From positions 1,798,001 to 1,862,000 of the forward strand of contig NZ_CP009517.1 in the NCBI RefSeq assembly GCF_000970305.1: 64,000 nucleotides of DNA, given 5' to 3'. Origin of the DNA: Methanosarcina barkeri 3 (GTDB taxonomy: Archaea; Halobacteriota; Methanosarcinia; Methanosarcinales; Methanosarcinaceae). Positions 35,391 through 53,144 of this stretch are shown here, piece by piece. The notes below the pieces were generated by a model. It saw only the letters and a list, made by a program, of their open reading frames with translations. It did no database searches and was not told the origin of the DNA. The first letter of the stretch is position 1; every line of letters begins with the position of its first letter. The translations under genes and the position numbers were made by a program.

Positions 35391-38255
35391 TTAAAGTTTG
35401 CTTCTTTTCATTAGCAAGGAATTGGTAGTTACCGAGACCGAACTGAGAGCCATGAAAGCAGCGGCAAGTTCAGGTGTAATCAGGATTCTGTGAACGAAGG
35501 GGTAAAGGATTCCGGCTGCAATTGGAATTCCTATCGTGTTATATCCAAAAGCCCATAGAAGGTTCTGTTTGATCTTGTTTATGGTAAGCCGGCTAAGCTT
35601 AATAGCTGCGACCACATCTCTTGGGTCATTTTTGATAAGCACAATTTTTGCGGATTCCATTGCTACATCCGTACCTGCCCCCATTGCAATTCCAACATCT
35701 GACTGAATTAACGCAGGAGCATCATTAATGCCGTCACCCACCATTCCGACAAGGTTACCCTCTTCCTGAAGCTTTTTAATTTCATTGGCTTTGTCTTCAG
35801 GAAGTACCTCTGCCAGTACTCTGGAAATACCTACCTCTTTTGCTATTGCACTGGCTGTAACAGCATTGTCGCCAGTAATCATAACTACTTCCAGACCCAT
35901 TTTCTTAAGAGTTTCAACAGCCTCTCTTGAATTTTCCTTCAGGGTGTCAGCAACTGCAACAAGGCCAATAATTTCTTCTCCGAAAGCCACGAGCATTGCA
36001 GTCTTTCCGCTTTTCTCAAAGGCCCGCATTTCAGCTTCTAATTCTTTAAAGGAAATTCCCTTTTCTTCCATAAGTTTTCGCGTGCCGAGCAAAATTCTTT
36101 TTTCTTCAAAGTATGCTTCTACTCCTTTTCCGGGAACGGAATGGAAGTTTTCTGCCTTTTCCGGGCTGATCCCCTGCTCTTCGGCCGCTTTTACAATAGC
36201 TTCCCCAAGAGGATGTTCGGATCCTCTCTCAGCCGTTGCTGCAATAAAAAGTACACTCTTTTCCTCGTGACCGGAAACGGCGACCAAATCTGTCAGTTTC
36301 GGAGTGCCTGCCGTAAGCGTGCCTGTTTTGTCGAAAACAATAGTATGAAGTTTGTGCGCTCTCTCAAGGGCTTCCCCACCTTTTATAAGAACCCCGTTCT
36401 CAGCACCTCTACCCGTACCAACCATAATGGCTGCAGGAGTTGCAAGCCCTACTGCACACGGGCATGAGATTACAAGGACAGTAATCGCTATAAGCAGGGA
36501 AAACAGGAATGGGCTGATTCCACCCAGAGTTACGGATTCTCCCACTCCATAACGCCAGTAACCTATGAAAAACCAGAAGAAAAAGGCCAGAAGCGAAATA
36601 ATATGCACGGTTACTATGAAGTTTCCGGCAAAAACGTCTGCAACCCTCTGGATAGGAGCTTTCGTAGTCTGCGCAGTTTCAACAAGCCTGATTATCTGGG
36701 CAAGGGCAGTATCAGCCCCAACCTTTGTAGCCCGAAAATTGAAAGAGCCTGTCTTGTTAAGAGTGGACCCTATAACGGTATCACCGGGTATTTTCTCTAC
36801 AGGGATGCTTTCTCCGGTAAGCATGGACTCATCTACTGCAGAACTTCCCTCAACTACCGTTCCGTCAACAGGAATCTTTTCTCCGGGCCGGACAACAACA
36901 ATATCGCCAACTGCCACTTCTTCAACAGGTACCTCCTTTTCAATGCCGTTTACAAGGATTCTGGAAGTTTTTGCCCTGAGGCCCATCAGTTTTCTAATTG
37001 CTTCGGAGGTCTGGCCCCTTGCCCTTGCCTCAAGATACCTGCCAAGGACAATGAAAATAATCAGAAAAGCTACAGTGTCATAGTAAAGATTATTATACCC
37101 TGGACCAAGATCAAGAAATGTTGCTGCTACACTGATAAGGTAGGCAGACCCTGTCCCTGCTGCAATCAGCAGATTCATGTCAGTTACGCCATACTTGAAC
37201 CCCTTAATAGCCCCGACAAAAAACTGTCTGCCAGGGAAAAGGAGAACAAGAGTGGACAGTACAAAAAGAACGATATGATTGGAAAGGAAATCAGGTACAA
37301 ATGACAGGAAAGGAAACATCATGCTCATGTTTCCTAGCCCTATTGGAATCCCTAGAACAAGAGCAATAATCAGGTTATTTCTCTGTCTTCGGATCTCGGA
37401 ATCCCTGGACATCTGCTCTCTGTCTTCATACTCAACAGCTTCAGTCTTAACAAACGCCCCATAGCCAATTCCCTGAACTGCGGCAATTATTTCTCTGACA
37501 GAGACGCGGGAGGAGTCAAACTCCACAACTGCCTTTTCAAGCGGGAAATTTACGGATGCTGAAATTACGCCTTCAATCCTGTTAAGGACTTTCTCGATAT
37601 TTGCAGCACAGGAAGCACAGCTCATACCTTCAAGACTCAGAGTTACAGTGTCTTTTTCTACCTTATATCCGATAGATTCGATAGTTTCCTCAATCTCCTT
37701 TGGAGAGATAAGCGAAGGCTCAAAACCTACCTTTGCCCTTCCAAGTTCAAGGTTAACAACTACTGAATCTACGCCTGCTTTTTTCTTCAGTACTCTTTCA
37801 ATATTTGAGGCACAGGCCGAACAGGTCATACCGGAAACTCCAAGCGTAATTTCTTTTCGACCGGTTTTCGGGCCTGAGTTTCGAGTTTCTTCTTCTGTCA
37901 GTTCACAAGTTTCAGTTAAGGGACAGGTTTGAGGAACCTCTTTAGATTCCTTTGGTTCCTCTAAAGCCGACTCCGGAGTTTTTGAAGTCTCCTCTCCAAT
38001 CTCTATTGTGCCGAGAACTTCTGTCCTGGCCTCTTCCTGAACCTCGTTTTCATTTTCTGTTGGATATCCTGCCTTCCGAATAGCTGCCTTTATGTCATCA
38101 AGGCTTACTTTTTCAGGATCAAAGCTAACCGTCGCACTTTCGGATTCAAGATTTACATCAACGGATTCCACCCCTTCAAGAGAAGAAATGGCATCCGTTA
38201 CTCTTTTTTGGCAGTGACCACAGGTCATGTCATAAACTTTTATAGTAACTTCCAT
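35391..38255 (-). CDS. copA: Copper-exporting P1B-type ATPase with three HMA domains
   Basis: 954 residues; pumps Cu(I) out of the cell. Three N-terminal heavy-metal domains with MTCGHC, MTCSAC and MSCASC (about 10, 140 and 215); the usual family count is one or two. An acidic, Pro-rich linker of about 65 residues, with one extra CxxxxxC pattern (CPLTETCEL), separates HMA 1 from HMA 2. The pump core has TGES, the Cu motif [18 protein letters not shown] phosphorylation loop, the SEHPLGEAI loop and GDGINDAP. Fed by the CopZ gene 630 bp upstream. Its 5' end is duplicated in degraded form at about 41945-41998. Confidence 0.95.
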
Positions 38256-38289: not shown

Positions 38290-38560
38290 CCCGGGATTTA
38301 AAAGTTTCTTCCGAGCTCTTCTACAGATATATATCCAGTTTTAAGTAAAGTCATCTGTATGAAACACGTATAATTTATCCGGCTGCCAGAGATTACATTC
38401 ATAGTTTTTCAGGAATATTGATATTTACCCTGGAACCCTCATTGACAAAGGTAATCTATCTTGCGATCTTGTCCTTGCAGTACCTGCATGAAGGTTGCGT
38501 CTATTATAAACGTGCTATCCCCACATGTTTACTCCCAAAGCGCAGTTATATTTTTCAAAC
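38290..38560 (-). pseudogene. Degenerate HMA-domain ORF between copA and copZ
   Basis: Nucleotide sequence matches the 42069-42296 HMA ORF (shared GGAATATTGATATTTAC, GTCCTTGCAGTACCTGCAT and TTTTTCAAACAGGCGCTTCA in plus-strand order) but has stops and lost codons. The larger 38256-38881 gap has no other gene; an inverted-repeat pair lies in its remainder. Confidence 0.75.
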
Positions 38561-38667
38561 AGGCGCTTCACCCATATATAAAAGCTTGTACCTTTTAGTA
38601 TAATTTTTAGTATATTTTTAGTATGAGTTTTAGTGTGACTTTTAGTAGAATAATCTTTAAACCAACA

Positions 38668-38858
38668 AGAAATTTAGGCTCTTCGTGTATTGTATGAATT
38701 AAAAATAATTAGTTAGAAAGTATTCATATCAAATCAAATATAAAAACATTAAGATTGAATGTAATTTTCAATCATAAATGCTTCTAAATTTTAGATATGC
38801 TACTTCAATATTTTGGAACTAAATGTAAGTTACCCACTCGAAATGGCAAAGAGCCAAT
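38668..38858. repeat. Inverted-repeat pair, second TIR family, copy 1
   Basis: AAATTTAGGCTCTTCGT at the left and CGAAATGGCAAAGAGCCAATA at the right are roughly inverted, about 170 bp apart, with AT-rich filling. The same ends appear at 55008-55122. Confidence 0.5.
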
Positions 38859-38881
38859 ATTACTTACGTAAAACTATCACA

Positions 38882-39088
38882 TTAGACAGGTTCATATCCG
38901 GCTTCCCTGATCGCATCTTTGACCTTTTCAGTGTTTGCCTTCCCTTCTTCATAATCAATAGTTACCTGTTTGGTCTGAAGGTTTACGTCCGCCTTCTGTA
39001 CCCCTTCGACAGCTTCAACTGCTTTTTTAACTCTCATCTGACAGTGCATACAGGACATGCCTTCAACTTTTATGGTTTCTTGTGTCAT
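38882..39088 (-). CDS. copZ: Copper chaperone CopZ-like HMA protein
   Basis: 68 residues, one HMA fold with metal motif GMSCMHCQMRV (Cys 12 and 15). Carries Cu(I) to the CopA N-terminal domains. GGAGATATTCT precedes ATG 39088. It reads toward copA on the same strand across a decayed HMA gene. A paralogue at 42469 differs at about ten residues. Confidence 0.92.
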   Translation of the reverse strand: MTQETIKVEGMSCMHCQMRVKKAVEAVEGVQKADVNLQTKQVTIDYEEGKANTEKVKDAIREAGYEPV

Positions 39089-39181
39089 AGAATATCTCCA
39101 ACTATAATTTACGTTAAACTATAATTTATGTTAAACTATATTTATTTCCAACTATAAGTCTAAACATTTTTAATATAAATA

Positions 39182-39297
39182 TCACTTACGCAGTTGAACT
39201 GAAAAGTCAAAGTACCAAATCGTTAACTATCTAAAACAAGGCTTTAATTCACAGTCTTTTCGGTTATGGTTTTGTTTCTCAAGTGCATAAGTCCTAA
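39182..39297. repeat. Short terminal-inverted-repeat element (MITE-like), copy 3
   Basis: CACTTACGCAGTTGAACTGA at the left and CTCAAGTGCATAAGTCCTAA at the right, with interior phrases (AACTGAAAAGTCAA, TTAACTATCTA, TTTTGTTTCTCA) shared with the 35218 copy. Confidence 0.75.
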
Positions 39298-39317
39298 TAA
39301 CTCAAAGATTGAACCTC

Positions 39318-39500
39318 AAGTTTTCAAGTTTTAAGTTTTCAAGTTTTAAGTTTCCAAGTTTTAAGTTTCCAAGTTTTAAGTTTCCAAGTTTTAAGTTTCC
39401 AAGTTTTAAGTTTCCAAGTTTTAAGTTTCCAAGTTTTAAGTTTCCAAGTTTTAAGTTTCCAAGTTTTAAGTTTCCAAGTTTTAAATTCCAAGTTTTAAAA
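39318..39500. repeat. 15-nt tandem repeat, about 12 copies
   Basis: Unit AAGTTTTAAGTTTCC. The array is open in several frames, giving false low-complexity ORFs on both strands (KLGNL and FPSFK repeats). Apart from it, the gap to 39771 holds no gene. Confidence 0.95.
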
Positions 39501-39771
39501 ACCATATGTATGATTCTACGAGTTTCTTACGCCGAATCATTATGGTTTCAAAACCAGATTACTGGACTTATGGGTTTAAACAAACACATAGTTAGCTGTC
39601 AATGGAGATCAATGTACCTGAGAACGTTGTATTTTCAGTTGAACTGTGCAGTACTGACTGAAAAAACAGTAATGACTGAGAAGACTGAGAAAACAGTAAT
39701 ATAAGACTCTCAGCAGTTTAAAATACGAGCTTTTTGACTTATTTTTCTAGTTTATTAAAATTTTCCTTTGT

Positions 39772-40416
39772 TTACTTGCATTCTTGACCCTCCTCTTTTT
39801 TATACATTCTTTCCAGAGGATCTTTACCGTTCTTAAACATAGCTCCATAAGGCTCAAATTTACCTATGCCGTTGACAGTACAGAAATGCATACCCTCGTC
39901 TGATCCTGTCATCATTAAAGGCTTGGCTTTTTCTACGTCCCAGGAACCACTTTCTTTGTCGTAGACACTGTCTTCTACCTCAAGATATACTACTTTGCCA
40001 AGAATCAATGCATAGGGAAAACCATCATACACTTCTTCAATTATATGATCTAGTTTACATTCCATCCATGCGTAGCATCCTTCAATTCCTGGTGCCTTGA
40101 TCTTTTTTGAAGGTTTCTCCTTTAGACCAGCTAATTCGAATTCATCAATATCGGGAGGGACATGTAAGGCTGTTGGTATCACTTTATCCGCCATATCAGT
40201 ACCGGGCATGTTAATAACGAATTCTCCTGTACTTCTTAAGTTAACTAATGTATCTCTCCTTTTTGCCGAAGCTACACAAACTAAATCAAAAGGACGTAAA
40301 ACAGGCATAAAGCAAGAATATGGTGCTATATTTCTAACTCCGTTTTCACTAATCGTTGATATAAATGTAACTGGCATGGGAACTATCGATTCTCGTTTGA
40401 AGTTTTCCAATATCAT
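39772..40416 (-). CDS. Flavin reductase-like (flavoredoxin) protein
   Basis: 214 residues; an FMN-binding split-barrel protein of the flavoredoxin/HpaC type. Family phrases: [21 protein letters not shown] (about 18) and [21 protein letters not shown] (about 49), with later [10 protein letters not shown]. Such proteins pass electrons between ferredoxin-like carriers and other acceptors. It lies 40 nt after the CooC-like gene on the same strand, so the two form an operon; the HxlR regulator diverges from it. Confidence 0.88.
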
Positions 40417-40456
40417 ATTACCACTACGCTATTTACAATTGTCTCCTTTCTCGATC

Positions 40457-41221
40457 TCAAAAGTGAACTCCTGAGATTAGAAAGTCAGCAACTGATTCGA
40501 TTTCCGGAAGTTCCACTTTTAGCTCTTCTCCTTCAAACCCTGCTAGAAATATTTCCGAGTTTGAAGGAACTGAAGTCAGAATATGGTTTTTACCCACGGT
40601 TTCCATCATTAACTGAATTCCTATTTTGTCTGCACGATTAAGAATAAAATATAGAGGCTTTCCGGCTTTTTCGGCAAGTTCACTTATTTTTTTAGAAAGC
40701 CTTATGGATTCGTAAGATGGATCAAGCACCATTAACACAAGGTCACAACCCTCTTCAACTCCCCTTCCAAAATGCTCGATACCAGCTTCGGTATCCACAA
40801 ATACAATGTCTTCAGGAGTAGTTTCCGTATTTTTCAGAAAATTTCTTGCAAGAGCACCCATCGGACAGGCACATCCCTCTCCGAAGTCATGAATCTTGCC
40901 TATTGTTATCATTTTAATGTTTTCCTTTTCTACAGCATAAGCTTCTGGAATATCAGAAATTTGCCATTTATTTTCAAAAATACTGACGGTATCTCCCTTC
41001 TGATAAGCCTGCATTAGTTTTTCCCCAAGGGTTTTTTTCCCTCCAAGATAATTCATGAAATCTTCGGGCATATCAAGGCCTAGCTGTTTATGAAGCCCGA
41101 AATTTGACTCATCGCTATCAACCACAAGTACATTATAATCTTTTTTAGCCATGGATTTTGCAAGCAGAGCAGTAATAGTACTCTTGCCACTTCCGCCTTT
41201 TCCACATATAAGAACTTTCAT
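40457..41221 (-). CDS. CooC-like nucleotide-binding maturation ATPase
   Basis: 254 residues, MinD/CooC superfamily. Deviant P-loop GKGGSGKST (about 7-15), switch region VVDSDESNFG, then the Cys pair CACPMG (about 116) typical of CooC proteins, which bind a metal at the dimer interface and insert nickel into CO dehydrogenase. No CODH gene is in this window; the operon partner is the flavoredoxin-like protein. So it may mature another metallo- or Fe-S protein. AGAGGTAAAAGG precedes ATG 41221. Confidence 0.85.
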   Translation of the reverse strand: MKVLICGKGGSGKSTITALLAKSMAKKDYNVLVVDSDESNFGLHKQLGLDMPEDFMNYLGGKKTLGEKLMQAYQKGDTVSIFENKWQISDIPEAYAVEKENIKMITIGKIHDFGEGCACPMGALARNFLKNTETTPEDIVFVDTEAGIEHFGRGVEEGCDLVLMVLDPSYESIRLSKKISELAEKAGKPLYFILNRADKIGIQLMMETVGKNHILTSVPSNSEIFLAGFEGEELKVELPEIESVADFLISGVHF

Positions 41222-41343
41222 CCTTTTACCTCTGTATAAGAATATCTATTGTTAAAAAATACTTAAATAATAACATATATTATTAATAATCACAATACAT
41301 TCTATAGTATTAATAACATAAAGTTAATAGTGATAAAGTGACT
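41222..41343. promoter_or_regulatory. Divergent control region between cooC-like and hxlR-like genes
   Basis: 122 bp, very AT-rich, with TATTAATAA repeated as TATTATTAATAATCA and AGTATTAATAACA, plausible half-sites for the HxlR dimer and overlapping TATA elements. Confidence 0.45.
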
Positions 41344-41694
41344 ATGAAAAAGAATAGTAACGGAATTTGTTTGTGCCCCATTGAAGGGATTATCACCATA
41401 ATATCCAAAAAATGGGCAATACAGGTTATTAGTGCCCTTGGACATCACAATAGATTACGATTCAATGATCTCATGAACACTCTTGAGGGTATCAGCCCAA
41501 AGTCACTTACCGACCTGTTAAAAGAACTCCAAAAAGAAGGCCTGATCCAACGAGAAGCATTTCCCGAGATACCTCCGAGGGTTGAATACTTTTTGACAGA
41601 CGATGGAAAAGAGCTTTGTGAAGTAATAATTCCTTTAATAAAATGGGCGGAGAAAAGGGATAATCTGCATCATGAAATCTTTAATTCCACCTGA
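41344..41694 (+). CDS. HxlR-family winged-helix regulator
   Basis: 116 residues from ATG 41344 (a GTG two codons upstream is possible). HxlR signature: Cys-containing start NGICLCPIEG, then IISKKWAIQVISAL, the recognition region RFNDLMNTLEGISPKSLTDL and the wing REAFPEIPPRVEYFLTDDG. HxlR proteins often use the N-terminal Cys to sense electrophiles or redox stress; here two Cys (about 9 and 11) are present. Divergent from the cooC-flavoredoxin pair, which it probably controls. Confidence 0.9.
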   Translation: MKKNSNGICLCPIEGIITIISKKWAIQVISALGHHNRLRFNDLMNTLEGISPKSLTDLLKELQKEGLIQREAFPEIPPRVEYFLTDDGKELCEVIIPLIKWAEKRDNLHHEIFNST

Positions 41695-42068: not shown

Positions 42069-42296
42069 TTAAATGATTTTTCCGGGATCCTCTACGATTT
42101 TATAGCCAGCTTTAAGCAAAGCCATCTGTATGACATATGCGTCAGTTATTCGGCTATCATAGGTTACATTTACTGTTCTTTCAGGAATATTGATATTTAC
42201 TCTGGAAACCCCATTGATAGAGGTAACGAGTCTTGCAACCATGTCCTTGCAGTACCTGCATACCAGATCATCTACGATGAATGTTGTCTCTCCGAT
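42069..42296 (-). CDS. HMA-domain ORF without a normal start codon
   Basis: From 42296 the frame is open for 75 codons: GETTFIVDDLVCRYCKDMV, then VSRVNINIPERTVNVTYDS and KAGYKIVEDPGKII. This is a complete HMA fold with metal motif CRYC. A ribosome site GGGGGTGA (42308-42301) stands 4 nt before an ATC, where an ATG would be expected; the next in-frame ATG (42242) would delete the Cys pair. Either it uses a rare start or the ATG was lost. The homologous 38290 copy is worse decayed. Related to membrane copper proteins of the neighbourhood. Confidence 0.55.
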   Translation of the reverse strand: MGETTFIVDDLVCRYCKDMVARLVTSINGVSRVNINIPERTVNVTYDSRITDAYVIQMALLKAGYKIVEDPGKII

Positions 42297-42468
42297 GTAT
42301 TCACCCCCACAACATAATTGTATTTTTCAAACAGGCGCTTCACCCATATGTAAAGTTTATTACTTTTACGATATATTCTTTGAAACCATTACTAGATATT
42401 ATTTGCATTTGTACCTTTTATATATATTCTTTGAAACCAGCACCAGCTATTATTTACGTGAGACTACA

Positions 42469-42675
42469 TTAAACAGGCACATACCCGGTTTCACGAATTG
42501 TAGCCTTGACCTTTTCAAGGTTTTCCTTTCCTTCTTCAAAATCAATAGTTACCTGTTTGGTCTGAAGGTTTACATCCGCCCTCTGTACTCCTTCTACAGC
42601 TTCAACAGCCTTTTTAACCCTCAACTGGCAGTGCATACAGGACATGCCTTCAACCTTGACGGTTTCTTGAGTCAT
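42469..42675 (-). CDS. Second CopZ-like copper chaperone
   Basis: 68 residues, HMA fold with GMSCMHCQLRV; near-copy of the 38882 chaperone, differing mostly after residue 50. CGGAGATTGAAAAC precedes ATG 42675. It is the intact gene of the duplicated copper segment (copA fragment, HMA ORF, copZ), so both chaperones may serve the single CopA. Confidence 0.92.
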   Translation of the reverse strand: MTQETVKVEGMSCMHCQLRVKKAVEAVEGVQRADVNLQTKQVTIDFEEGKENLEKVKATIRETGYVPV

Positions 42676-45506: not shown

Positions 45507-45746
45507 TCACATCAAGCGTTTTTTCATTTCTTCAAACTCTTCTTCAGTAATTTCGCCTCTTGCATATCTTTCCTTTGCAATATCCAGCGCAGATTTCTCT
45601 TCACTTCTTCTAGTTTTATTTTGCTCAACAAACCATCTAATTAGTAAATAAGCTAGCACAATTATGATAATCCAGAAAATAAGTCCGAAAAACATACCCC
45701 CATACCCCATCATGCCGTAACCGTAATGATTTATAAATCCATCCAT
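45507..45746 (-). CDS. SHOCT-domain small membrane protein
   Basis: 79 residues from ATG 45746, preceded by AGGGGGTGGTGAC, preferred over a start 20 codons upstream. A Gly/Met/Tyr-rich start (HYGYGMMGYGGM), a membrane helix (about 18-40) and a C-terminal SHOCT helix pair (DIAKERYARGEITEEEFEEM). SHOCT motifs are short oligomerisation or membrane-control modules. Role unknown. Confidence 0.85.
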   Translation of the reverse strand: MDGFINHYGYGMMGYGGMFFGLIFWIIIIVLAYLLIRWFVEQNKTRRSEEKSALDIAKERYARGEITEEEFEEMKKRLM

Positions 45747-46011
45747 TGTCACCACCCCCTTAATCGAAATTATGTTTTGAATAAGGTTTTCATTTGAGTT
45801 ATTCAAGGTTATGTGATTACTGAAAATTCTATATCTCTCACTTCCTTTCTTGAGTCTCTTTCGTCCTTTAGTGGTTTAAACTTTCTGAGTATTTACAATT
45901 GCAAAAGATCTAGAAGCCTCTAATCCAGACACTATAATCTGGAAAAACGTAAATCAAAAAATTTAACTTTTAAGATACCTAGAATTGTAATACCAGGCTA
46001 CCGACAGAAAT

Positions 46012-46707
46012 TCAGCTTGTTGTATTCATCCCGCCCAGATAAGGTCCGTGCCATGTATGCACCCAGATCTGGCCATTATAGGCATTTACGCTCAACATTC
46101 CTTCAATATCTTGTCTTCCAAAATCAAAAGTGTAATAACCGGGCATTTCATTAGATTCCATGACCTGCGCTCCCGGCAGGTAGCCTGTCAAGAAATCTCC
46201 TGCCAGCTTTTTAGCCTCATTCATATCATATTGAGGACCTCCGGTCGTTGTTCTGCCAGCTCCAAAGCGCGTGTTCCACATCATGTTTGGTCCTGGTTCA
46301 GGATAGGCTGATCCTGAATAGCGGTCCACTAGAACTTCAGCTATATTCTGACTGCTGTTTGTGTCTTTTAGAACAGCATAATAGTTGCCGCTGAATACCA
46401 TGAAGTCCTCGACCTGAATATTCGAGCCATATTGACTGGCAAAGCTCTCTATATTTTTCAAAGCCTCGTCCTGGGTTACAGGTTTTGACTCCGGATAATA
46501 TATTGCCATCATATTGCCCATCATTCCCGGTCCGTAGCTATAGTTATAGCTTGGATTGTTCATCATTCCCGGCCCTATATGCCCGGGCTGATAACCGCCT
46601 TGATTATAGGTTGAACTATACATCATCGGCCTGAAGGCTAAAAAAGCAAGAAGTAATATTATTACCAGTACTAACAGGCCAATTATGATATTTTTGCTGT
46701 CTGCCAT
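46012..46707 (-). CDS. Met/Tyr-rich membrane-anchored protein with PepSY-like repeats
   Basis: 231 residues; GGGGTAATC precedes ATG 46707. One N-terminal anchor (about 7-27), then a Gly/Met/Tyr/Pro-rich stretch (about 30-68: PGHIGPGMMNN, SYGPGMMGNMM) and two PepSY-like halves, each with an EAxK helix, a YY strand and a VDRYSG/VNAYNG turn (about 77-135 and 155-220). Met-rich outside segments often bind Cu(I). That fits the copper genes around, but is inference. Confidence 0.7.
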   Translation of the reverse strand: MADSKNIIIGLLVLVIILLLAFLAFRPMMYSSTYNQGGYQPGHIGPGMMNNPSYNYSYGPGMMGNMMAIYYPESKPVTQDEALKNIESFASQYGSNIQVEDFMVFSGNYYAVLKDTNSSQNIAEVLVDRYSGSAYPEPGPNMMWNTRFGAGRTTTGGPQYDMNEAKKLAGDFLTGYLPGAQVMESNEMPGYYTFDFGRQDIEGMLSVNAYNGQIWVHTWHGPYLGGMNTTS

Positions 46708-48377: not shown

Positions 48378-48692
48378 TCAATCCGCTAGAAAGCGAACGG
48401 TTAATTCAACAAGAATTCCCAGCATCATGAGTAGAGTCACGATCAGCAAAGCAGTCGACCACATCCTTACATCATATACCCTCATGAATTTTCTTATGCC
48501 CTCTGAACCCGAAAAAAGCCCTGAAAATAATGCAAATAATACTATCATTATTACGCTTACTGATATCCAGTGGTGACCTGTAAGTGTTATCAGGAATTGT
48601 TTAAAGTCGGCTGAGAGATCATGGGCAATGACAATGCAGCCGGTTAAAAACACGGCGATTGTAGCTGATGCGATAAAAATTACTTTTTTCAC
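48378..48692 (-). CDS. Small membrane protein with three helices
   Basis: 104 residues, starting GTG 48692 and overlapping the stop of the upstream gene by 4 nt (GTGA), so translation is coupled. Membrane segments at about 5-24, 42-62 and 79-99. No family recognised. It is probably the second subunit of the b561-like membrane protein. Confidence 0.75.
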   Translation of the reverse strand: MKKVIFIASATIAVFLTGCIVIAHDLSADFKQFLITLTGHHWISVSVIMIVLFALFSGLFSGSEGIRKFMRVYDVRMWSTALLIVTLLMMLGILVELTVRFLAD

Positions 48693-49591
48693 CTCAAGCC
48701 CTCCGTCCCAATTTGACCAGCATTTGATATAATCGCTCCCATCAGGAACATAAGCAGCACCATGAAAAGCGCCAGAAAAGAAATCATTGTAAGAGCGCGC
48801 CTGAGTTTAGCATCATCAAGAAAGTTATTTTTGTCAAGAATGGACAGAGTAATTGACAGGGCTAGAACAATTATGGGCAGAAAGACGAAAACATGCTCTT
48901 TCATCTCCATTATAATCTCGTGCGCCCAGGGATAAGGACCTTCAAGGATAATGGGTTTTACCTGAGAGCTATAGGATGTTAAATAATTATAGCCTCCTGC
49001 TATCCAGCATCCCGCGGTCACAAAGAATACCGCCAGATAGCTGGCCACCCTCACCCTGGAGAGTGATCTGTCTTTTGGATACAGCAGCTCCAGAATGATC
49101 CAGACAAGAACAAGGGAAGCGAGGCCTCCAGATACTGAATGAAGAAGGACCAGATTTTTTGTTCCGGAAATTACACCATTGTACAGGCCCCAGCTAGCAT
49201 CGATAAATAGAACTGGTGCTAGGGCATAACCCAGTGTTTTGTGCAACTCCCTGTACCTTGCCCGGCTTTTTAAAATCAGGCTTGGAATAACCTGAAGGAC
49301 CACTAGGAGAAGAATAACCAGCCCTAGTTTTCCGTGAACAGACAATAGTATTGATTCTCCGTGCTGCAACCTTATCCATAAACCGTAGATGAACGATCCC
49401 AGGATAAAGGTTCCAAAGTAAATGCCGTACTTTTTATGGAGCTTGAAGGCATTTCCTGAACCTCTCTTAATTCTTCCTCTGAGCGTAGCTCCGGTCGTGA
49501 GGGCATAAACCATCAGTAATAAGCTGATAATAGCTATCAGGGCATGACCTATCCAGTTCTCATACACAAAGGCAACGCCGCCAATAATCAA
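48689..49591 (-). CDS. Cytochrome b561-like membrane protein
   Basis: About 300 residues, nine or so membrane helices. His-bearing helices are WIGHALIAI, KLHKKYGIYF, VHGKLGLVIL, LHKTLGYALAP and LLHSVSGG, the pattern of di-haem b561 domains, so a membrane electron carrier is likely. Start uncertain: TTG 49591 has no ribosome site, while the frame stays open back to TAG 49653-49655; the added residues (EDSNRRTRSDIYTGLALLL) look coding, but hold no ATG. GGGGGG stands before an ATT just after that TAG, so a rare start codon is possible. Coupled to the 48378 gene. Confidence 0.7.
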   Translation of the reverse strand: MIIGGVAFVYENWIGHALIAIISLLLMVYALTTGATLRGRIKRGSGNAFKLHKKYGIYFGTFILGSFIYGLWIRLQHGESILLSVHGKLGLVILLLVVLQVIPSLILKSRARYRELHKTLGYALAPVLFIDASWGLYNGVISGTKNLVLLHSVSGGLASLVLVWIILELLYPKDRSLSRVRVASYLAVFFVTAGCWIAGGYNYLTSYSSQVKPIILEGPYPWAHEIIMEMKEHVFVFLPIIVLALSITLSILDKNNFLDDAKLRRALTMISFLALFMVLLMFLMGAIISNAGQIGTEGLR

Positions 49592-49659: not shown

Positions 49660-50195
49660 CCCCAAAAAGCTCAATTCTAAAAACTTTTCAAATATCCCAG
49701 TTAGCTAAACTGAAATCAACTTTTACCCTAATACCAAATCAAATCCATATGAAGACCTGAAAAGTCGGAATACATCACTCATTACTCTATAAAGCTGCTC
49801 GAGGCATAAGGTACCTCTTAAGAGATCTTCAATAGCTGAGTTTTCTTAATAACTGATCTTAATAGCAAGGTTTCTTTTAGGTTACGGACAGTAATACTAG
49901 TCATATATTAATATTAATCCACAAATAATAGTATTCACGTAAATTAATATAATATCGTTCCAAGAAAATTTTTTACAAAGAAAGGTCATAATTTACCTCG
50001 GATTCCGTAGTAAATATCCTTGAGAATACAATAATAAGTAAAACTATTCACACTCAGGCCATAACGCAGTACAATACTGTGTAATATGGTTACGCAACAT
50101 TGTTGCGTAATGTATTATGTAACATGGTCGACCTGATTGGACATGGTTGAATCTGATTGAGTCTAATCTAGTCCGATCGAATATGGTTGGGTAGC
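49660..50195. other. AT-rich divergent promoter gap
   Basis: No gene seen. Near 50090-50170 there are short repeats of TTGCGTAA and ATGGT(C/T)GA with TGATTG, just before the exporter start. Confidence 0.4.
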
Positions 50196-50927
50196 ATGCT
50201 TGTCTATGAAGAAATTATCTATATAGCCCTGCTTACACTGCTGGCAAGCCTGATCGGGACTCTGGCCGGTTTTGGAATATCCACAATCATGGTACCCATT
50301 CTCCTGGTTACTCTTCCTCTGCCTCAGACTTTACTCCTGGTAGGCATAGTTCATTGGTTTAATGATATCTGGAAGATACTCTTATTTAGGAAAGGAATAA
50401 GATGGAAGCTTCTCCTTGCCTTCGGTCTTCCAGGAATCTTTGCCAGTTTCTTGGGATCATCTTTATTCTTGAGAGTTTCGCATGAAATTCTCTCAAGAGC
50501 TTTAGGAGCATTCCTTATAGCCTATGTTCTCTTCATTATATTTAACCAAACATTCAAACTGAGTCAGAAGTTATCGGTAGCAATATCCAGTGGAGCCCTT
50601 ACCGGATTTTTTGCAGGTATCTTCGGCATAGGCGGGGAGATAAATGCAGTAGTTTTGAGCACTTTCAACCTGGAAAAAGCCGTTTATGTTGCAACTGCTG
50701 GCGCTATATCTTTTATGATCGACTCTACAAGGATAGCAATATATATCCAAGGAGGTACAAGACTCGACCCTGTCCTTGTATCAGGCTTTTTGATCTTCAT
50801 ACCAGTATCTTTAATCGGGGCAATAATCGGGAAAAAAGGAGTTGCAAAAATACCCCAGGAAAAGTTCAGGAACTTTGTGTCAATTTTCATATTTTTATTT
50901 GGCTTGAAACTGTTACTGTTCCCATAA
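50196..50927 (+). CDS. TauE/SafE-family sulfite/anion exporter-like permease
   Basis: 243 residues from ATG 50196. About eight membrane helices in two similar halves. Family phrases: LASLIGTLAGFGISTIMVPI (near 15) and GALTGFFAGIFGIGGEINAV (near 135), the paired G-rich turns. Members export sulfite, sulfoacetate or other organosulfur anions; substrate not readable. Single gene. Confidence 0.9.
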   Translation: MLVYEEIIYIALLTLLASLIGTLAGFGISTIMVPILLVTLPLPQTLLLVGIVHWFNDIWKILLFRKGIRWKLLLAFGLPGIFASFLGSSLFLRVSHEILSRALGAFLIAYVLFIIFNQTFKLSQKLSVAISSGALTGFFAGIFGIGGEINAVVLSTFNLEKAVYVATAGAISFMIDSTRIAIYIQGGTRLDPVLVSGFLIFIPVSLIGAIIGKKGVAKIPQEKFRNFVSIFIFLFGLKLLLFP

Positions 50928-51324: not shown

Positions 51325-52848
51325 TTAGCATCCGTTTGATGAGTAGTTTTTACACTGCCCGCTAGAAGAATCATTGTCCATTTTACTAGATGAACAATCT
51401 TCACCCTTTTTTGACGACAGATAGTCTATTTTCTCTTTCAACGGACCTGCAGATTCATTGTCGCATGTAGACTCATTATCTATTTCTTTGTCCATTATGT
51501 CCATGTCCATTTTTTCCCCTGTAAGGTATTCATGGGCCTGCATCATCTCTTTCATCATTTCCATCTTGAATTCACCGGTTGCAGCTTCCGGCTTCATAAG
51601 GCACATTTCATGCATTTTTATGGCTTTCTCAAGACATAAACAAACGCAGTCCAGATCGGCCTGGGTTAGGCTGACCTTTTTATCCATCTTGTCTGTATAG
51701 CAGCTTTCGTTAGCTTCTTTCTCTTCCATCATACGTTCCATTTTATCTTTTTTAGCTAACTTGTCTTCCATGATAGAATTCTTCATAGCTTTCATCATGG
51801 TTTTATTGAGTGATTTTTCTCCCATTTTCATGGAGCCCATCATCATGATTATCATCTTTTCCCTGGGTGAAGGCTCACACATTTCCCTGGAAGAAGGCTC
51901 ATACATCTCTCTTGCTGAGTCCTCTTCAAAGTCCATCATCATTTCCAGATTCATACCCTTTCCTTCCATACATTCGCGGGCCCGCATCATCTGGTTCATT
52001 AATCTCATATGGGATTCATTGGTTGCTGTTTCAGGAGCCTTAAGGTACATTGCGTGAAGTTTTATTGCCTTTTCAAGCCAGAGAGCTGTAAAGTCAACAT
52101 TATCCTGGGAGAGACTGGCGTTTTTAACCATTCCCATGTCCATGTCTTCTTCTGCAAGATATCTGTTTGCACGCATCATGTTAGCCATTAATCTCATCTG
52201 AGACTCATTGGTTGCAGTCTTAGGGTCCTTCATGTGCATTTCATGAAGTTTTATAGTTTCATCAAGCCAGAAATCACAACAGTCAAGTCTCATGAGGGCT
52301 GAGATAACGTAAGGATGTTTATACTCTACCGATTTATTGTCTTCTGCTCTGCCCATCATGTCCATATTCATTTTTTCCCCTGCAAGGTATTTTTTGGCCT
52401 CCTTCATCTGGTCCATCATCTCCATATTGGAGTCTTCGGTTGACGTACAGGGGTTCATCATATGCATCTCGTGAATCTTTATTGCTTTCTTAAGCCAGAG
52501 ATGAGCGCAGTCAATGTTAGCCTTGGATAAGCTTTCGTTATAGCAGCTTTTATTGGCTAATTTTTCTTTCATCATGGAGCCTGTCATGGTCTCATTACAT
52601 GATTTTTCTTCCATCATTGACTTCATCTTTTCCTTGGAAGAAGTTTCATACATTTCGCTATTTTCACATTCTTTCGTTCCAGACTGCATCATACTTTTAT
52701 TTTCGGGGCAAGGAACCATCTTATCCTTTTGTTCCATCAGTTTCCCCTGACCCATCGTGCTTCCTGCAATGGGTTGTACGAATGCGGTTACTATTATTCC
52801 TATAAGTACCAGTAATAATACTGGCTTCATGATTCCAGGTTTTGTCAT
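51325..52848 (-). CDS. Exported Met/His-rich protein with four helical repeats
   Basis: 507 residues; GGGGAGAATGAA precedes ATG 52848. Signal peptide (about 8-28). Four imperfect repeats of about 55 residues each contain WLxKAIKxHEMHM, a short NP or AP turn and a Met-rich helix ending YLxGEKMDMDMM: near 118-165, 197-245, 265-312 and 405-452. Between them are Met/Glu/Lys-rich links with Cys. About one residue in eight is Met. A four-helix arrangement rich in Met, His and Cys outside the cell suggests Cu(I) binding or storage, and the copper genes at 35-43 kb agree, but no known Cu-storage family was matched. Confidence 0.75.
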   Translation of the reverse strand: MTKPGIMKPVLLLVLIGIIVTAFVQPIAGSTMGQGKLMEQKDKMVPCPENKSMMQSGTKECENSEMYETSSKEKMKSMMEEKSCNETMTGSMMKEKLANKSCYNESLSKANIDCAHLWLKKAIKIHEMHMMNPCTSTEDSNMEMMDQMKEAKKYLAGEKMNMDMMGRAEDNKSVEYKHPYVISALMRLDCCDFWLDETIKLHEMHMKDPKTATNESQMRLMANMMRANRYLAEEDMDMGMVKNASLSQDNVDFTALWLEKAIKLHAMYLKAPETATNESHMRLMNQMMRARECMEGKGMNLEMMMDFEEDSAREMYEPSSREMCEPSPREKMIIMMMGSMKMGEKSLNKTMMKAMKNSIMEDKLAKKDKMERMMEEKEANESCYTDKMDKKVSLTQADLDCVCLCLEKAIKMHEMCLMKPEAATGEFKMEMMKEMMQAHEYLTGEKMDMDIMDKEIDNESTCDNESAGPLKEKIDYLSSKKGEDCSSSKMDNDSSSGQCKNYSSNGC

Positions 52849-53144
52849 TTCATTCTCCCCACTTATTTCCCAAGTTTATTAAATTTGAAAAATACCTACG
52901 CGTATTTATTTATACAATTAACATAAAAATGTTATTATAATAAGCATGTTTTCAGAGTTAATATTCTGTAATCAAAAATTGAGTTTAAAAAAGGTTTAAG
53001 TGTATGTATTTTCTAAACTTAACAACAAATATACAAATATATTAATATATAAGTATACGAGTATATCATTTTAAGTTGTCTAGTTTTTAGTTTAGAGCTA
53101 ACAGTGTATCTTTGGACTCGAAAATTGGAGAAAAAAAATTATTC
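52849..53144. other. Promoter region of the Met/His-rich gene
   Basis: AT-rich with TATA-like stretches (ATATTAATATATAAGTATA near 53038) and no gene. Confidence 0.4.

Follow-up and report, generated by a model that had tools for sequence, protein, structure and literature searches.

An exported Met/His/Cys-rich repeat protein of Methanosarcina as a probable extracytoplasmic Cu(I) buffer linked to CopZ and CopA genes

Bacterial systems that handle copper beyond the membrane are well documented. Methanogens are not known to use copper enzymes. CopM of Synechocystis, a periplasmic/extracellular protein with two DUF305 domains, is exported, contains 23 Met and 8 His residues, binds Cu(I) and confers copper resistance, and one CopM homolog of Anabaena is encoded upstream of genes for a putative metallochaperone and a putative copper ATPase (PMC4335983). 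SilE and PcoE are described as periplasmic Ag/Cu sponges with repeated Met/His motifs and a sponge role beside an export ATPase (PMC5008109; PMC7558416), the SilE motifs being MxxHxxxxxHxxM and HxxMxxxHxxM (PMC5008109). Csp1 and Csp3 (DUF326) are copper storage proteins built as four-helix bundles, Csp1 being exported (PMC7558416; PMC12510493). SmbP of Nitrosomonas europaea (SMBP) is presented as a small periplasmic metal binder (PMC10893511). Among the archaea, a 2008 survey lists the Methanosarcinales as copper non-users possessing CopA (PMC2147054).

The stretch analysed here (hereafter the window) comprises 64,000 nucleotides of Methanosarcina barkeri 3 (contig NZ_CP009517.1, positions 1,798,001 to 1,862,000). 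A first-pass annotation, made from the letters of this DNA, had proposed a Met/His/Cys-rich four-repeat exported protein as a candidate copper sink, and an open reading frame encoding 507 residues is found at exactly the position and on the strand it gave, 51325-52848(-). The encoded protein, hereafter FAM, is an exported Met/His/Cys-rich repeat protein. Met, His and Cys together make up 20.1% of its residues against a median of 5.5% among 37 selected open reading frames of the window, which places FAM first, the second-ranked frame reaching 9.3%; for Met alone the values are 14.4% and 2.5%. The sole hydrophobic segment lies at the N-terminus (52762-52848(-), about residues 1-29) and is conserved in homologs, indicating a signal peptide followed by a soluble body, as export had been claimed. 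In addition, FAM contains 14 N-glycosylation sequons compared to 3.2 +/- 1.6 in shuffled sequences, which fits a surface protein. Spacing of the MxxM type occurs 18 times as compared to 10.3 +/- 2.8 in within-protein shuffles and is thus only mildly unusual, and Met, His and Cys show no excess at i,i+4 positions by the same measure (23 versus 20.1 +/- 3.7). The traits of FAM that go beyond chance are its composition, its repeats and the conservation of these repeats. Among proteins with the helical repeat, nine of nine C-termini inspected end in Cys (codon 51328-51330 in FAM), which could possibly serve as an anchor, in a disulfide or as a metal relay.

The body of FAM holds four 56-residue repeats, in agreement with the earlier count: repeat 1 at 52351-52518(-) (residues 111-166), repeat 2 at 52123-52290(-) (residues 187-242), repeat 3 at 51934-52101(-) (residues 250-305) and repeat 4 at 51490-51657(-) (residues 398-453). 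A repeat profile matches these four places and nowhere else in the genome. The motif WLxKAIKxHEMHM, which had been ascribed to all of them, is present in this exact form in repeat 1, whereas the others deviate from it (WLDETIKLHEMHM in repeat 2, WLEKAIKLHAMYL in repeat 3 and CLEKAIKMHEMCL in repeat 4). The consensus of the repeat start reads xLDCxxxWLEKAIKLHxMHMKxPxxATNESxMEMMxQMMxAxEC. Nineteen repeats were collected for conservation analysis, and the 18 of equal length were used, a longer one being excluded. Position 16 is His in 18/18 of these repeats, Met occupies positions 35 and 38 in 17 and position 32 in 15, and the best conserved residues include His, Leu and the Met triplet. Only 11/18 repeats have His at the second His position, which counts against a metal sponge, and the positions of Cys differ between repeats. 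When FAM is compared with its homolog in genome G010, 24 of 40 Met, 5 of 7 His and 7 of 9 Cys are identical, as opposed to 13 of 51 Lys and Glu, at an overall identity of 41%; in comparisons with closer relatives Cys shows no particular conservation (12 of 19 in G022).

How might such repeats fold? Helices carrying Met and His had been postulated for FAM, and an AlphaFold model of repeats 1 and 2, computed with aligned homologs, predicts that the pair forms a four-helix bundle (pLDDT 85.6, pTM 0.78). The model of full-length FAM is poor outside the repeats, with a mean pLDDT of 52.9 and confidence in parts of the repeats only. By a helical-wheel estimate His-16 and Met-32 are located 67 and 75 degrees away from the predicted buried face; as these are intermediate angles, the estimate does not support a pre-formed inner metal site. 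Foldseek found no match to the repeat model at an E value of 0.001 or better, and structure comparison indicates that the four-helix bundle of the repeat pair is a common arrangement.

That FAM belongs to no known family had been stated before, and searches of Pfam, NCBIfam and PDB sequences indeed yielded no convincing match. Weak Pfam matches to Utp12, FixO, DUF2218 and DUF4943 fell below cut-off and were inconsistent among FAM members, and matches of repeat profiles to designed leucine-rich-repeat proteins in the PDB (E about 1e-6) were set aside because they probably arise by chance from a short helical motif of Leu, Ala and His. Compared with the described metal binders, FAM shares with CopM export, richness in Met and His, repeated domains and a homolog close to metallochaperone and copper ATPase genes (PMC4335983). 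DUF305 (PF03713) was matched neither by FAM nor by its relatives or repeat pairs; none of 30 genomes of the genus exceeded the DUF305 cut-off, none of five weak matches lay at a FAM locus, and the HH motif of DUF305 was absent from all nine aligned FAM sequences. With SilE and PcoE FAM has in common export and repeated Met/His motifs (PMC5008109 and PMC7558416), whereas SilE is disordered without metal and FAM, which is in addition rich in Cys, has repeats that are predicted to be folded; neither SilE motif occurs in any of the nine aligned sequences. Csp cores are lined by Cys, the FAM repeats carry Met and His with variable Cys, and the four-helix bundle predicted for the repeat pair, a common arrangement, might store several Cu(I) ions. 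The DUF326 profile (PF03860), which found its match in Bacillus subtilis as positive control, matched in 0/30 genomes of the genus, and no Csp structure appears among the 50 matches listed (VIA-align), an absence that carries no weight. The model of the repeat pair superimposes on SmbP (3u8v) with a Z score of 10.2, which is within the range of unrelated helical bundles, and an rmsd of 1.6 over 81 of 83 residues at 15% identity. SmbP uses His and acidic ligands, in contrast to Met, His and Cys in FAM, and 0/30 genus genomes exceeded the SMBP cut-off (PF16785), with none of the listed weak matches at a FAM locus. As a functional class, extracytoplasmic Cu(I) buffers would be expected to bind Cu(I) or Ag(I) and to be encoded in association with copper export genes, and this gene association is found for FAM. 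FAM probably acts in the manner of CopM, PcoE/SilE or Csp1, yet it fails their sequence or motif tests.

FAM is a single-copy gene in this genome, and relatives recognized by the repeat profile are present in 10/30 Methanosarcina genomes including this one; the copy in G023 is broken, that in G008 is a fragment at a contig end and that in G019 is split over two contigs. Four repeats are present in FAM itself and in its relatives from G015, G021 and G022, whereas those from G001 and G010 have three and that from G007 has one. Methanosarcina spelaei is a named near relative, with 90% identity in the best segment. Outside the genus no convincing relative was detected in 392 genomes of the phylum and 185 of the order, both sets being partly Methanosarcina; the phylum search gave three matches and the order search one, all of them covering short parts only (E 2.5e-4 to 2.2e-3), and these were set aside. 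A plasmid collection contained no match either. The broken copy of G023 (L029:89-665(-)) has stop codons and is found beside a fragment of a P-type ATPase gene, away from the main cluster.

Which genes surround FAM? The first-pass annotation had named a CopA, two CopZ and a Met-rich membrane protein in the window, and all of them are there. The P-type ATPase CopA (35391-38255(-)) has three HMA domains and the motifs CPC, YN (GYN) and MxxSS, which we take to be the signature of a Cu(I) pump; its top NCBIfam model is the copper-exporting CopA, yet the match stays under the cut-off of this model. The CopZ-like HMA chaperone of 68 residues at 42472-42675(-) (HMA E 6e-18) is accompanied by a second small HMA protein at 42090-42311(-) (HMA E 6.3e-9), forming the CopZ-HMA-CopA cluster, and a second CopZ copy lies at 38885-39088(-). 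The Met-rich membrane protein (46012-46707(-)) has a single membrane span, as does its partner, a SHOCT-domain protein (45507-45806(-)). In the window other genes separate FAM from the nearer CopZ, at a distance of about 9 kb, and from CopA, at 13 kb, which argues against the sponge reading.

The copper reading had been made dependent on a link in the neighbourhoods of orthologues, and such a link is found: three divergent genomes have FAM next to the cluster, and a further three have both within one region. More precisely, the order FAM-CopZ-HMA-CopA on one strand is seen in the divergent relatives G001 (L020), G007 (L021) and G010 (L024), in each of which a homolog of the 68-residue CopZ follows FAM, after about 0.4 kb in G001 and G007 and about 0.6 kb in G010, where the gap includes a partial CopZ-like stretch. 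These adjacent cases all come from one genus and are not fully independent. In the window, G015 and G019, FAM is located in the same region and orientation with a TauE/SafE permease, a frequent neighbour (50187-50927(+) in the window), in between, and the window has several further genes there; in these three, a block encoding an HxlR regulator, a MinD-like ATPase and a flavin reductase parts the HMA gene from CopA. In G022, G021 and G008, contig ends bar a test of linkage. The same block (38301-41694 in the window) separates the HMA gene and CopA in 11/28 mapped genomes, the window included, and in locus L094 it is found without a MinD match. Next to these genes the window contains the second CopZ copy and the remnant of a decayed HMA sequence.

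Mapping of 23 window genes on 30 stretches, with HMA-gene regions from 22 further genomes, revealed a recurrent order of UbiB, a variable slot, CopZ, HMA and CopA. Occupants of the slot are FAM, TauE, DUF4079, additional copies of CopZ, or the Met-rich membrane protein accompanied by the SHOCT protein. This pair of membrane proteins stands directly before CopZ-HMA in G012, G360, G413, G011 and G023, and is a candidate for a second copper module at the cell surface. A DUF4079 membrane protein (48689-49591(-)) together with a small membrane protein (48378-48692(-)) was observed in the same slot in G005, G393 and G013.

Upstream of FAM a conserved element (52923-52943(-)) consists of the palindrome TTATTATAATAA followed by TTTTAT and is a candidate promoter or operator. 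The palindrome is present in 8/8 aligned FAM upstream regions and degenerate but alignable in two further ones. No second match within three mismatches was found in the window. Upstream of CopZ the best match has on average 2.4 mismatches versus 3.3 in shuffles, in a set of 25 related loci whose mean includes the misoriented L097 and L107; co-regulation of FAM and CopZ is thus only hinted at by these sequences. In G007 an exact copy of the palindrome is located between FAM and CopZ (L021:10778).

In G020 and G014 the slot is occupied by a different exported protein, 285 residues long in the former and 321 in the latter, with 19% Met, about 12% Cys and short repeats, in which the repeat profile detects no helical repeat. 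The first 35 residues of these proteins are 49-60% identical to those of FAM from the window and G022 and 31% to those from G010, and their upstream regions align with that of FAM, including the AT-rich element. With about 31% Met plus Cys, the proteins from G020 (L096:9487-10341(+)) and G014 (L099) have a metallothionein-like appearance. The protein of G007 is a hybrid in which short Cys/Met repeats are combined with one helical repeat. The short Met/Cys type occurs in 2/30 genomes of the genus and either type in 12/30, and in eight of these it shares a contig with CopZ, HMA and CopA (G000, G001, G007, G010, G014, G015, G019 and G020); the remaining four are G022, G021 and G008, with their contig ends, and G023 with the broken copy off the main cluster. 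As neither type is found in 18/30 genomes, the FAM gene is accessory, and since the small HMA partner protein was matched in 29/30, the pump system can do without FAM.

What could FAM do outside the cell? Export, ligands for soft metals, linkage to chaperones and an ATPase with Cu(I) motifs, and replacement by an exported Met/Cys protein in the same slot together favour extracytoplasmic buffering of Cu(I) or Ag(I) over other roles. We consider it probable that FAM is a soluble extracytoplasmic buffer for Cu(I), and perhaps Ag(I), its location and metal binding being deduced from genome evidence, at which level the proposal of a copper sink finds its support. FAM would then reside between the membrane and the S-layer, where two hairpins would pair to a four-helix bundle, as in the AlphaFold model. 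Within and between such bundles, side chains of Met and His, and perhaps of Cys, would coordinate multiple ions of Cu(I) or Ag(I), so that copper exported by CopA or arriving from outside would be kept off the membrane and from re-entry; Met/Cys-rich linkers may supply extra sites. Detoxification is likelier than storage for use, since the Methanosarcinales are listed as copper non-users having CopA.

Alternatively, FAM might be directed at a different soft metal (Ag, Hg, Cd), or it might act in copper delivery or uptake instead of storing copper for detoxification, the CopZ-CopA neighbours then representing a general soft-metal island. Met, Cys and His ligands cannot distinguish Cu(I) from Ag(I), which counts for such a reading, and the HMA proteins also match MerP models. 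The metal handled by the Met/His sponge SilE is silver (PMC5008109). Against another metal speak the CPC, YN and MxxSS motifs of the linked ATPase and its best, albeit below-cut-off, model of a copper exporter, and against delivery the non-user status of the Methanosarcinales in the survey (PMC2147054), so that we regard this explanation as unlikely. Somewhat less probable still is that FAM is an oxidant sink rich in Met, or a structural surface protein associated with the S-layer, with a linkage to copper genes that is historical. The many N-glycosylation sequons, the long charged low-complexity linkers of low model confidence and the DUF4079 and TauE membrane proteins of uncertain role in the same region would be compatible with it, and Met and Cys are oxidisable, but it leaves unexplained why different exported bodies rich in Met, His and Cys occupy the slot beside CopZ-CopA and why the repeat His is invariant. 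Finally, a repeat protein that expands and decays without any selected role could account for the patchy range (10/30 genomes), the varying repeat number and the broken copy in G023; conservation of ligand residues above average at about 40% identity, the upstream palindrome in 8/8 regions and the terminal Cys in 9/9 C-termini make this very improbable.

Returning to FAM as an extracytoplasmic buffer, a wider proposal can be made, which we advance tentatively as somewhat short of probable: Methanosarcina may possess a swappable surface copper sponge, in which a common promoter element and signal peptide, in a slot upstream of CopZ-HMA-CopA, are joined to a body that is either a chain of Met/His hairpin repeats with a constant C-terminal Cys, a metallothionein-like Met/Cys chain or a hybrid of both. 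Together with the Met-rich and SHOCT proteins, this would be the first extracytoplasmic copper-buffering system in methanogens. A search of the open-licence literature returned no description of this protein or of extracytoplasmic copper handling in methanogens, and the claim that such a system would be new for this group, made already in the first-pass annotation, rests on that search of a partial, open-licence literature. If the sponge is real, anaerobic archaea without known copper enzymes would meet enough copper or silver to maintain a defence at their surface, which may be of relevance in biogas reactors that receive copper-rich manure. The exchange of bodies would then constitute a natural experiment, setting a Met/His bundle against a Met/Cys chain as ligand chemistry outside an archaeal cell.
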